Positions 32,397 to 42,609 of a DNA stretch of 64,000 nt are shown here, in pieces. The DNA comes from Bradyrhizobium sp. (lineage in GTDB: Bacteria > Pseudomonadota > Alphaproteobacteria > Rhizobiales > Xanthobacteraceae): contig NZ_JAUSLT010000065.1 of assembly GCF_030646015.1 (NCBI RefSeq), positions 27,373 to 91,372 on the forward strand, in the 5' to 3' direction. The notes beneath the pieces are model-generated. The model did not search any database and was not told the DNA's origin. It saw only the letters and a program-made list of their open reading frames with translations. The stretch's first letter is position 1. Every line of letters starts with the position of its first letter. The position numbers and the translations under genes are program-made.

Positions 32397-32876
32397 ATGG
32401 AAGAATCTTCCGTGCACAAAAAACTTGATCGGATCGACCTGAAGATGCTGCGCCTGCTTCAGGGCAATGGCCGGCTCTCCAACGCCGAACTGGCGCAACT
32501 GGTCGACGTCAGTCCGGCAACATGTCACCGCCGTACCCAGTCGCTGTTCGAGCAAGGCTGCATCAAGAACGTTCGCGCGATGATTGTGCCGCAAAAGGTC
32601 GACAGGGGCGCGCTGGTCATGGTCGGCGTCGTTCTCGATCGTTCGACACCGGAGAGTTTCGCGACGTTCGAGAAAGCCGTCGCGAAATTGAAATTCATCC
32701 TCGATTGTCATCTGGTCGCCGGCGATTTCGATTATTCCCTGAAAATCAGGGTCAAGGACATGGCGGACTTCAACCGGATTCATGGCGATCAGTTGATCGC
32801 ACTGCCTGGCGTTCGGCAGACCCGAACGTTCTTCGTCATGAAGGAGGTCGTCGACAACGCTCCGCTGGAGTTTTGA
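32397..32876 (+). CDS. acdR: Lrp/AsnC-family regulator of acdS
   Basis: N-terminal winged HTH (LDRIDLKMLRLLQGNGRLSNAELAQLV, then VSPATCHRRTQSLFEQG) followed by the ligand-sensing RAM domain (VGVVLDRSTPESF to the end). Divergent placement from acdS with a 147-bp gap is the standard acdR-acdS arrangement; AcdR activates acdS in response to ACC in Pseudomonas. The ATG at 32397 is chosen over the track start at 32172, which lies inside acdS. A 45-bp piece of its 3' part is duplicated at 37963. Confidence 0.88.
   Translation: MEESSVHKKLDRIDLKMLRLLQGNGRLSNAELAQLVDVSPATCHRRTQSLFEQGCIKNVRAMIVPQKVDRGALVMVGVVLDRSTPESFATFEKAVAKLKFILDCHLVAGDFDYSLKIRVKDMADFNRIHGDQLIALPGVRQTRTFFVMKEVVDNAPLEF
32775..32819 (+). 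repeat. 45-bp acdR segment duplicated at 37963 (direct repeat copy 1)
   Basis: CGGATTCATGGCGATCAGTT and the following bases to CGGCAG match 37963..38007 at 44 of 45 positions (T at 32813 is C at 38001). Copy 1 is the native coding sequence of acdR. Confidence 0.9.
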
Positions 32877-37796: not shown

Positions 37797-37820
37797 TACG
37801 GTGACAGTGCACTAAATGAG
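37797..37820 (+). repeat. Extra copy of the MITE-like arm sequence
   Basis: TACGGTGACAGTGCACTAAA is a diverged copy of the arm TACGGTGACAATGCACTCAA found at 37882, in direct orientation 85 bp upstream of it. Confidence 0.6.
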
Positions 37821-37881
37821 TTGCCGCGTCTCCGGCTGTGAAGCCGCGATCTACACAGTCTTCGAGCAAGAATCCTGACTG

Positions 37882-37960
37882 ATTACGGTGACAATGCACT
37901 CAATTGACTCGGTGAGGTCCGAACGCGCGACGCCTCAATTGAGTGCACCGTCACGGTAAT
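37882..37960. mobile_element. MITE-like 80-bp palindrome
   Basis: Arms of 26 bp beginning ATTACGGTGAC and ending GTCACGGTAAT pair at 23 of 26 positions around a 27-bp centre. No ORF is carried. It covers the last codons of the truncated helicase ORF and abuts the acdR-derived repeat. It could be terminal repeats of a transposon whose body is gone. Confidence 0.5.
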
Positions 37961-40693
37961 TTCGGATTCATGGCGATCAGTTGATCGCACTGCCTGGCGT
38001 CCGGCAGCCCGACGAACCGCAAGGCCATCGCGTCGATTGATTCGGCCCTCTCTCTGTTCGAGGTCGACCGGATTCGATGGGAGGTTCCAATGAACAATGT
38101 CGCGACAGAAGAGGTGAAAATCAAGCCCCTCCTGCCCAACGGACGTGGTCGAGAGCACGAATGGCCAGAACGGTGAGTTGAAGGCCTCGCGCACCGCGGT
38201 CTTTCGGCTCGGTCCAGACTGCTCAAGCGGCGACCCTTGGTCGGCCTTGACGTCTTCGCCAAATGCGAGCGCGAAATGCGAGCGGCGGACCAATTGCTCC
38301 GTACGTAGGCGCCCCGTATCCGTGGTTAGGTTGATCTTGGGGCTTCCAGTACCAACACCCAATACCCGAGCCAAATGTTCCGCCATTTCGCCTTGGGTGT
38401 TCCGCTGCAGAACGTTCTTGCCAACGTAAAGGTACTCGTCCGCAACCGCCTGAAAATGTGCGCGCTCGCAATAATCAATCGCGCCACGCGCATATCCACG
38501 TCTCGCCTGCGCCGTGCGTTCGACAATGGCACGAACTGTTCGTCTGTTGAAGTAACTGCGGAGTTCTCCGAAGCACAAGTCAATAAGCTTCTCATGAACC
38601 TCGCCGGCGTTATCGGGGAAAGTCGTCCAAAACGCGCGCAGTAAAGAGACGGCTGGCGAGAAAGCAGCGATGCGCGCGAGGTGCGTCAGCCGTTCTTCCG
38701 AGATTCGCAGCGTTCCTTGTTCGCCCATCCAGCTGGCAAAGGTGTCAACATGCTCAGCGAAACGCTCCGTCATGTCGTCACCGTTGTATGCGATGCTCTT
38801 CTCGAGAGCGCGGCGTATGGAAGAACCCGAGCGTTGTTCAAGACGAGCTACAACTTGCCATATCGGCGATCGGCTCGTGGTGGCAACCTCCACGCCAGCT
38901 TCTATGAGCGCCTGTTTCAGGGACTTCCGTGTTCGCCTAAGCAGGTCCTTGGCCGTGAGGTCGTCGCCCGCGATGGCCGAAGGCTCAATGAGCCGGGCCA
39001 GCGCCGGAGACGGCAGACAGACATCGAAGATATGGAACGAGCCTTTTTCGGTAAAGCGCAGCGGGGGCCGGTCGTCGCCGTCCCACAGCCGCCCACGTGG
39101 AGCAATCCGTTGTTCGGCTTCATGACTCGTCAGCAAGGCGATGGCCTTCGGCACAAAACGCCAACCAGAGAAGATGAGCATCTTCGTCGGATCCGCATCT
39201 TGGAAGAATTCGTCGCGGTAATAGGTATAGGTCGGTCGCGTCCACAAGAACTTCCACTGTGTACCAGGAGTGCCAAACACTGCCCGAAACAGCTCGCGGA
39301 ACCGTAGGTTCCGTCGTGCCAATCCGCCTAGCTTCGATGGCGGCTCCACGACACCTAAAGGCACAATGGCCTTCTTGCGCTTTGCCGCCGTCATCGGGGC
39401 GTACTGTGCATCCATGAACGTAAACGGTGCCGGGCAAGACTTCCAGTACTCGGTTATGTGCTGGGAGGTATCGACCTTGTCCAGCAGAAACCTCCGCAGG
39501 CGGATGTAATCGACCACTTCCTCTTTCTGCGGTACGGCAAACGCATCTCCTGTTGGCCGTATTTCCTGTATTCCTTTCGTTGGGTCTTGAATGTACGCGT
39601 TCCGCTCGGTCCTGCAGATCACCTTGCGAAGGCGTTTTTCAATACGGGCCCGCAGCGCCAGCAATTCGGGGTCGTTACCTTGCAGGAACGCTCCTACCTC
39701 AAGACGTTCTCGAAACGCCTTGAGATCGCCCCGAAGTCGCGCGACTTCCTGTTTGCCTTGATCCGCGAAAAGGAACCGAACGGTGTCCAAAAACTCGTCG
39801 TAGTGGCCCTGACCTTCATGATCCAAGGCCAGCATGCGGTAGGGCGTAGCGGAAAGAATGAGGACGCCAGGACGGCGGTCGAAGAGACGCGCCGCGATGG
39901 ACTTCTTGCTGCCCGCCTCCTCGATTACTTCCCTAAATCGTTGGACCTCATCGAGTATGACGAGATGAGGCTGAAGATCGTCGAGTAAAATGCGTTGGGC
40001 AGCGCTGCGAAGAATCCCGACAATACGGTTACGGCGCTTCCTACTCCCGGCATCATTCGGCTGAAATTGATCGACCTCATTTCGCAACACGTCAGATAAC
40101 ACCAGAGTCGAACCTTCCACCTCGATCGGCTTCCGCCATTCCTCGGCAATCCTTTGCTGCAGACCGGAACGCAGCTTCCTATTGAATTCCAATCGCAGGA
40201 CGCTAAACCGCGTGGTCGCCTTCCAGCGTTCTTCTCCGGCACCACATCGGAAGTATTCGCGCCATTTCCCTTTGCGAATGTCCTGGCGGAGCACGCGGTA
40301 GGTCAAGAAGAGCAGCAACTGCCGTTCCCACGCCAGTCCGGTACCCTCCGTTAGCGACGTGCCGGGTGTGAATGAATAGAGCTGAAGGTCGTCGGTTTTC
40401 TTGGCGCTCCACGCCAGTTGCGTAATCCTTCGCAAGGAGGGAGGTGCGTTGGGTGCTAACTTCGTCCGGTTCTGGTCAGCGATTTCGGAATTCGAACACA
40501 GATAGACTACGGTCAAATCTCGGCCTCGGCGGCGGCGCATGAGCTCTTCGATCACACCGCGCGCAACAACCGTCTTGCCCAGCCCTACTTCATCAGCAAG
40601 AAGAAAACGGCGCGATCCACCGGTGTCGGTCAATCGCTCGCAGATTGTCTCAACCGCCGCGCTCTGAAACTCCGCGAGCTTCACATTAGACAC
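37883..40693 (-). CDS. SNF2/DEAD-like superfamily 2 helicase, C-terminally truncated
   Basis: Large ATP-driven nucleic-acid motor. Walker A LLADEVGLGKTVVARG (residues 31-46), motif II VILDEVQRF, motif III LILSATPYRML, and the C-terminal lobe with LSTTSVGQEGLDFHLFCRD and NLPSNPVDLEQREGRINRR (motifs V and VI). Homology should continue after GLAVRR, but from about residue 896 the frame enters a 45-bp copy of acdR and then the MITE-like palindrome, giving a 41-residue tail of non-native sequence. The start overlaps the DUF6361-type gene by 8 bp, so the pair is coupled. Activity is uncertain because the C-terminus is lost. Confidence 0.8.
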   Translation of the reverse strand: MSNVKLAEFQSAAVETICERLTDTGGSRRFLLADEVGLGKTVVARGVIEELMRRRRGRDLTVVYLCSNSEIADQNRTKLAPNAPPSLRRITQLAWSAKKTDDLQLYSFTPGTSLTEGTGLAWERQLLLFLTYRVLRQDIRKGKWREYFRCGAGEERWKATTRFSVLRLEFNRKLRSGLQQRIAEEWRKPIEVEGSTLVLSDVLRNEVDQFQPNDAGSRKRRNRIVGILRSAAQRILLDDLQPHLVILDEVQRFREVIEEAGSKKSIAARLFDRRPGVLILSATPYRMLALDHEGQGHYDEFLDTVRFLFADQGKQEVARLRGDLKAFRERLEVGAFLQGNDPELLALRARIEKRLRKVICRTERNAYIQDPTKGIQEIRPTGDAFAVPQKEEVVDYIRLRRFLLDKVDTSQHITEYWKSCPAPFTFMDAQYAPMTAAKRKKAIVPLGVVEPPSKLGGLARRNLRFRELFRAVFGTPGTQWKFLWTRPTYTYYRDEFFQDADPTKMLIFSGWRFVPKAIALLTSHEAEQRIAPRGRLWDGDDRPPLRFTEKGSFHIFDVCLPSPALARLIEPSAIAGDDLTAKDLLRRTRKSLKQALIEAGVEVATTSRSPIWQVVARLEQRSGSSIRRALEKSIAYNGDDMTERFAEHVDTFASWMGEQGTLRISEERLTHLARIAAFSPAVSLLRAFWTTFPDNAGEVHEKLIDLCFGELRSYFNRRTVRAIVERTAQARRGYARGAIDYCERAHFQAVADEYLYVGKNVLQRNTQGEMAEHLARVLGVGTGSPKINLTTDTGRLRTEQLVRRSHFALAFGEDVKADQGSPLEQSGPSRKTAVREAFNSPFWPFVLSTTSVGQEGLDFHLFCRDIVHWNLPSNPVDLEQREGRINRRDGLAVRRAAGRQAVRSTDRHESEITVTVHSIEASRVRTSPSQLSALSP
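37963..38007 (+). repeat. 45-bp acdR segment, displaced copy (direct repeat copy 2)
   Basis: Matches acdR 32775..32819 at 44 of 45 positions. It lies exactly where helicase homology ends and so marks a recombination junction. Confidence 0.9.
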
Positions 40694-42368
40694 TGGCGTT
40701 TTCCTCCTCGAGCGAACTGCGGAACACTGCCCAGAATTCGCGGAATGTGCTCATGTTCGCGGTATCTCCACTAGCGGCCAAGACGGCCTCGACTTCTTGA
40801 GTACGACTTGGATCAGCCGTGCACGCTTCAAGGATTCGCTCGATAGTCGCTCGCCTGAGCAGTGGTTCACCCGACTGCCCACTCCCGTATTGCCGGTTAC
40901 CCGAGGAGCGTGACGTTCCGCCGGGCCGGCCGGCCAGAATGTCCAGGAGCAGGCTGCGAGCATCAACTCCCTCGAGAAGCCGGGCGTTCACAGCATTGTC
41001 TCGGTCGTCCGCGTCCCGAGCGCCTAGGTTGAGCTCGAACTGGATGACGAATGGCAGCTCGATGTCCTTGTGGTCCACATTCGAGATGACGATGTAGGCA
41101 AATGCCGCGACGTCCTCGAGTTCAATTCCTGTGAACAATGCGCCTGAGCCGTAAACTAGACGGTAGTCCGCCCGTGACGCGTGATCTCGCTGAAGCAGCG
41201 GAACAATCTGTGCGCACATACCAGCGGGCCATCCCTCAGCGCCGGCTGTGGACGGCTCGAGCAACCGCAAAGTCCTCGTGTTTGAGTCGTATTCGCCGCG
41301 AATCTGGTCGGCGTGCAGGAGGCGCTTGAAGGTCTCTAGGCGTTTGGTGACTTCCTTCTCGGGATCGGCGACTTCCGGCTGTCGCACGTACTCGTCGAAC
41401 CACCTATCGCCTCGATTCCCTGGGCGCAATGCGGATGACACTGTTGGCACAGTCACGAACTCGCTCGTGCTCCAATTTTTCAGAGGGTCCCTAGCCTCAT
41501 CCCACCATTGCTCGAAGACCGGTTGCACAATGTTCGTCGCGCTCTGGATCCCCAGCTTGTCGAGCTCTTCGATTAAGAGAGAGTAGTATTGGAGCGTCGC
41601 TCCTCGAACAAGAAGGCTCATATTTCTGGCGTGCCCAAGCCAGACACGGAGTTCCCGCGAGGCCTTCGGGCAGTCCCATGGCCACTGAATGCCAACTAGG
41701 CGGTGCGCGAGCATGTGCGACAACAGTGAATCGGGGAATCTCGACGTGAACCGCTTGTGCAGGTCTAGGGCCTCCGCCTTCGTGAGCTTGAATGTCTCTC
41801 CGGACTTCACCAGCCCTTCCGAATTTAGGAACCTTGCCGGCGGAAGATCGGCGCACCAATACTGGGCGCCCTCAGGCCCCTGTGCTGTCTTGTCGTCGTC
41901 TTGATAGCCACGATGACTGCGCCGGATGTCGTCGAACTGCTCCTGATACGCGCTTTCAGAGAGGCTCGATGTGAATATTCCAAGCTTGCGCAGTCCGCTC
42001 CAGTAGATAAGTGAAGGGAACTGCCTCAGGTCAATCCCAGCTTCCCGACCTATGACCCCCACGGTTTCCTTGGCGGCGAGAACGTCCCTCAACTCATCCT
42101 GTCGCTGTCGAGCGAGTTGAGATACCTGGCTCGTGTGAACGCCTTCAAGTTCGATCCGCCTATAAATTCCAGCGACGAAGTAGAAATATCGAGCGGATCG
42201 CATCAGCGTGGTGGTCGCCGGATGCAAAAGATCAGAAAAGCGTCCCAGAAGAGCGAGGAAACCGAGTTCGTCGATAACGCCTTCTTCTTGAAGCGATCGA
42301 ATGAAATTGCGCGCTTGCGAAAGATCGTCAGCTCGAAAGTCGAGCCAAGTCACTGCGTCGTGCTTCAT
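40686..42368 (-). CDS. DUF6361-family protein, partner of the helicase
   Basis: 560 residues without signal peptide or membrane helix. The N-terminus VTWLDFRADDLSQARNFIRS, DELGFLALLGRFSDLLHP and TTTLMRSARYFYFVAGIYR match my recall of DUF6361 (WLDYSE...DELGIG...FADLLFPGTSTIQTRARYF). No catalytic motif is visible. Proteins of this kind occur next to large helicases in genomic islands, which suggests phage defence, but no function is established to my knowledge. The ATG at 42368 has GGAG six bases upstream and is preferred to 42380. First gene of the two-gene operon. Confidence 0.7.
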   Translation of the reverse strand: MKHDAVTWLDFRADDLSQARNFIRSLQEEGVIDELGFLALLGRFSDLLHPATTTLMRSARYFYFVAGIYRRIELEGVHTSQVSQLARQRQDELRDVLAAKETVGVIGREAGIDLRQFPSLIYWSGLRKLGIFTSSLSESAYQEQFDDIRRSHRGYQDDDKTAQGPEGAQYWCADLPPARFLNSEGLVKSGETFKLTKAEALDLHKRFTSRFPDSLLSHMLAHRLVGIQWPWDCPKASRELRVWLGHARNMSLLVRGATLQYYSLLIEELDKLGIQSATNIVQPVFEQWWDEARDPLKNWSTSEFVTVPTVSSALRPGNRGDRWFDEYVRQPEVADPEKEVTKRLETFKRLLHADQIRGEYDSNTRTLRLLEPSTAGAEGWPAGMCAQIVPLLQRDHASRADYRLVYGSGALFTGIELEDVAAFAYIVISNVDHKDIELPFVIQFELNLGARDADDRDNAVNARLLEGVDARSLLLDILAGRPGGTSRSSGNRQYGSGQSGEPLLRRATIERILEACTADPSRTQEVEAVLAASGDTANMSTFREFWAVFRSSLEEENASV

Positions 42369-42609
42369 ACGGGACTCCATAGGCCGCTGCCTGGCTCCAA
42401 GCAGCTAGTGAGCAGCGATCTTGTAAAGCTTGCTGACGATGATTGCCTTATTCTTTTTTCTTCCCGGCCTGCTCAATGTTACCAATGAGAGCTTGGCCGC
42501 CGTCCCCGACGTCGACTCGTTCGATACGGATGATCGAGAAGGCGCGCGACAACCCGGCTTACCGCGGTCGCTGCCGCCAAGACACCACGGTCGCGATAGG
42601 CGCCACCAA

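Follow-up and report, generated by a model that had tools for sequence, protein, structure and literature searches.

Azaca and similar defence systems

Azaca (zacA-zacB-zacC) is a catalogued anti-phage system. Its helicase is listed as ZacC (PMC12278908), and it is listed as carrying a PLD-like domain in PMC10952713, which cites Millman et al. 2022 for the system. The locus described here was found in a window (the whole 64,000-nucleotide stretch of Bradyrhizobium sp. DNA that was analysed). It shares with Azaca the gene order and the DUF6361 and helicase families, but ZacA and ZacB are fused, and the copy has lost 84 aa from ZacA, some 360 aa from ZacB with its entire PLD region, and some 245 aa from ZacC.

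Two further systems showed a weak likeness to ZacC in the helicase motifs: DISARM through DrmD (E 6e-18; 64.5 bits against a curated cut-off of 610) and Dpd through DpdE (E 6e-17; 61 bits against 500). The scanned neighbours included no other gene of either system. Intact Azaca can be likened in mechanism to Hachiman (HamAB, PMC12278908), which follows a helicase and nuclease logic; the helicase family and the nuclease of Hachiman are different ones, however, and Azaca is not a member of it.

Gene content and family assignment

Two ORFs were located on the minus strand (37883-40693 and 40686-42380) with an overlap of 8 bp, in agreement with the sequence-only reading, which had described a helicase coupled to a DUF6361-like partner. 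Both frames are open with zero internal stops. For the partner gene, the second ATG at 42368, which was the start chosen in that reading, agrees with the start in the relatives. The features are collected in Table 1.

Table 1. Features of the Azaca remnant and its borders in the window
Feature	Position	Strand	Remarks
Helicase ORF, truncated zacC	37883-40693	-	936 aa, GTG start; PADLOC ZacC and DNA alignment to three relatives
zacA'::zacB' deletion fusion	40686-42368	-	564 aa if the start is 42380; PADLOC ZacA and ZacB, alignment to L003/L004/L005
zacA part kept in the fusion (DUF6361), codons 1-324 of 408	41397-42368	-	
Junction of the deletion and fusion, where 1331 bp present in L003, L004 and L005 are lacking (zacA end and first ~360 zacB codons)	41397-41402	-	
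zacB C-terminal part kept, codons ~361-596, without both PLD half-motifs	40686-41402	-	
Genuine zacC sequence within the helicase ORF, 896 codons of 1141	38006-40693	-	
50-bp inverted lrp/AsnC copy (source 32775-32825), inside the last, unrelated part of the helicase ORF	37963-38012	-	96% match
Dispersed host repeat ATTACGGTGACARTGCACTCAATTG, inverted copies	37882-37960		further copy at 37797-37817
Serine recombinase (resolvase/invertase), 188 aa	42634-43200	-	Pfam Resolvase E 7e-44

Helicase motifs were detected by Pfam in the 936-aa protein (ADEVGLGKT, DEVQ, SATP and QREGRINR in the sequence), and the protein matched ZacC of PADLOC-DB with an E-value of 1.4e-228 over profile positions 12-911 of 1019. 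In the 564-aa protein, the Pfam DUF6361 match (E 2.7e-20) covered only profile positions 4-249 of 388. Its N-terminal part (residues 9-320) matched PADLOC ZacA (profile 4-315 of 396, E 2e-63), and its C-terminal part (residues 325-561) matched PADLOC ZacB (profile 355-585 of 586, E 1e-18).

The matches to the ZacA, ZacB and ZacC models bear out the defence origin proposed earlier, and the family is the already known Azaca system, here as a broken copy. The proposal of an uncharacterised two-gene module was not upheld: the family has three genes, the two-gene form arose by deletion of the presumed nuclease, and counting genes misled because this deletion had fused them. Two points were likewise overlooked: the 564-aa product joins truncated parts of two genes, and the helicase is cut at its C-terminus.

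Intact relatives

Fifteen intact loci were compared, composed of L003, L004, L005, eight plasmid loci and four genomes of a 399-genome phylum sample. The nearest are two contigs of Nitrospira MAGs (L003 and L004, 88-89% DNA identity), followed by a contig of a Burkholderiales MAG (L005, 77-78%). All 15 loci contain three separate overlapping genes in the order DUF6361, phospholipase-D-like and helicase, typically encoding 390-410 aa (ZacA), 600-620 aa (ZacB) and about 1000-1140 aa (ZacC). None of them carries the fusion of ZacA with ZacB, which was seen in the window alone. The 8-bp zacB/zacC overlap of L004 is identical to that of the window ORF pair. At one of the 15 (L034, genome G284) a single TAA was flagged at the end of the helicase match, yet the ORF is full length (1044 aa). 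Most plasmid loci are annotated in their records as DUF6361 family protein, phospholipase D family protein and helicase-related protein.

In the phylum sample, ZacA and ZacC occurred in an identical set of five of the 399 genomes, so the pairing is conserved across genomes as had been expected. Full-length ZacB was present in four of these five, the exception being the window's own genome. The third, nuclease-type gene that had been anticipated is ZacB (PLD-like, a presumed nuclease), present in intact loci elsewhere. No relatives of ZacA or ZacB were found in viral contigs.

A UvrD-type helicase, usually together with a PD-(D/E)XK nuclease-type partner (an AddAB-like pair), adjoins zacABC in about eight of the 15 intact loci (L005, L026, L027, L030, L031, L032, L033 and L036) and could be accessory to the Azaca system. 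The pair is not near the window locus; its best match in the window's assembly is a helicase with 29% identity, located on a different contig.

Two other occurrences were recorded. Besides an intact zacABC, genome G248 has a partial ZacC-like ORF about 45 kb away from it (L039; contig C6, around 288124-288735). A ZacA gene 75% identical to that of the window (L006) comes from a contig of low coverage that had been placed, probably wrongly, in the bin of a Thermoplasmata archaeon.

Proposed action of intact Azaca

ZacC contains a complete SF2 motif set, and its likeness to DrmD, DpdE and RapA lies in those motifs only. As for ZacB, the PLD model PF13091 matched three of 13 members and the NgoFVII PLD model matched one of 13. 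The second ZacB motif aligned weakly with BfiI (2c1l, E 0.027), a restriction endonuclease by its record, and also with 7clg (E 0.0055). Structure prediction from three close sequences gave pLDDT values of 36 for ZacA and 32 for ZacB.

In the most likely scheme, ZacC would engage or translocate on invading DNA, ZacB would cut this DNA when licensed by the ZacC helicase, and ZacA would be the sensor or assembly partner. We infer both the nuclease activity of ZacB and this division of labour.

Two lesions in the window copy

The DNA alignment breaks at the fusion junction, and L003, L004 and L005 all have a further 1331 bp before it picks up again. The gap is in frame and joins ZacA codon 324 to ZacB codon 361. 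Among the lost ZacB residues are two half-motifs, H110-P-K112 with R140-N141 and H295-A-K297 with G312-S-x-N315, both invariant or almost invariant in the 15 loci. When the whole assembly was searched with intact ZacB, the retained fragment was the sole match, and no second ZacB came to light.

In the helicase, homology to each of the three relatives is lost at 38006. Many positions in the lost C-terminal part of ZacC are invariant, and the missing invariant or nearly invariant residues include those from P915 to P1022, with GQPxQ among them. The final 40 residues of the helicase ORF are unrelated to ZacC and read through an inverted lrp/AsnC piece, whose source gene is 5 kb away, and a dispersed host repeat.

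This repeat, ATTACGGTGACARTGCACTCAATTG, is a palindrome of roughly 25 bp and is mostly intergenic in other genomes of the genus. The region 37797-37960 was considered as transposon ends and rejected; it is the dispersed repeat, whose copies in L041 and L042 have ordinary genes nearby.

Three Azaca features were thus found wanting in the window: ZacC is not full length, its conserved C-terminus being absent; ZacA (DUF6361) keeps only 324 of its 408 codons; and ZacB has lost both half-motifs of its PLD-like HxK...N pattern. Descent from a zacABC operon is evident from the 88% DNA identity to L003 and L004 that flanks the deletion on both sides. We therefore call the locus an Azaca remnant and not a working member.

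Genomic context and acquisition

The higher A+T content noticed in the sequence-only reading was confirmed, the GC content of the two genes being 0.57-0.59 compared with 0.61-0.68 in most neighbours. The reported resolvase is also present, as a serine resolvase upstream of the two genes. A stretch 78% identical to it occurs elsewhere in the same assembly, at C9, and we found nothing to tie the resolvase to the Azaca system.

Ten neighbours in a Pfam scan were metabolic or regulatory, namely an FAA hydrolase, a PLP enzyme, an Lrp regulator, a phosphonate-binding protein, a D-2-hydroxyacid dehydrogenase, a LysR regulator, SoxA, SoxZ, SoxY and a flavocytochrome c. No defence-family match was revealed in the seven neighbouring ORFs scanned.

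None of the 36 further genomes examined from the genus has the locus, save a damaged ZacC fragment in genome G035, and given this absence from relatives it was probably acquired horizontally. No empty insertion site was found; soxA is common to the genus and the left flank is not. The fragment in G035 (L038; contig C83, around 799265-799822) is split by a stop and is accompanied by neither ZacA nor ZacB. It is a second decayed Azaca copy in the same genus.

Selection on the retained parts and interpretation

Judged from sequence comparison, the locus is very probably a decayed copy of the three-gene Azaca system that was acquired horizontally and is most likely inactive in defence. One in-frame deletion took out the ZacA end together with the whole ZacB PLD region, and a separate break cost ZacC its conserved C-terminus. 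What remains is an ATPase core that lacks its effector, which makes inactivity in defence most likely. Without its presumed nuclease, the window copy should not act by helicase-licensed PLD cutting.

The selection estimates are pairwise dN/dS values only. Against L003/L004 they were 0.15-0.17 for ZacA' (0.17 for the L003-L004 pair), 0.20-0.33 for ZacB' (0.21) and 0.09-0.11 for ZacC' (0.12), so relaxed selection is not clearly visible in the retained parts. The lesions may accordingly be recent, or the remainder may still be of some use. The open frames and low dN/dS count against decay; they fit a recent lesion and equally a retained function.

The same observations, with the in-frame fusion, would suit a functional Azaca variant in which the fusion and the shortened ZacC block or remodel phage DNA without cutting, or regulate. 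We regard such a variant as quite unlikely, since the fusion has no second example among the 15 intact loci or the plasmid matches, residues invariant in the relatives were lost through two independent lesions, the helicase tail is host debris, and a fusion falls in frame by chance one time in three. Its specific form, a working two-gene nuclease-free derivative that blocks phage or plasmid DNA uncut, is no more likely.

An assembly error, by which an intact zacABC was misjoined or collapsed in the contig, might be suspected in an assembly of 205 contigs. It would need two unrelated junctions both to be wrong, and no further zacB sequence exists in the whole assembly, while on this contig the truncated helicase continues into copies of a host gene and a host repeat; this explanation is highly improbable. 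A plasmid replication or resolution module of helicase and resolvase is hardly credible. In its favour, the resolvase gene adjoins and many relatives are plasmid-borne. Against it, the helicase resembles ZacC specifically, the genes beside several relatives include AbiE toxin genes, PD-(D/E)XK/UvrD and further defence-type genes, and the scanned neighbours in the window include no replication gene.

Read as a degenerate Azaca copy, the locus provides a natural example of the decay of a defence system, in which the presumed nuclease region has been lost, the rest is open and relaxed constraint is not yet clear. The comparison with intact relatives shows the conserved regions of the Azaca proteins, and it also reveals the recurring AddAB-like gene pair beside intact Azaca loci.
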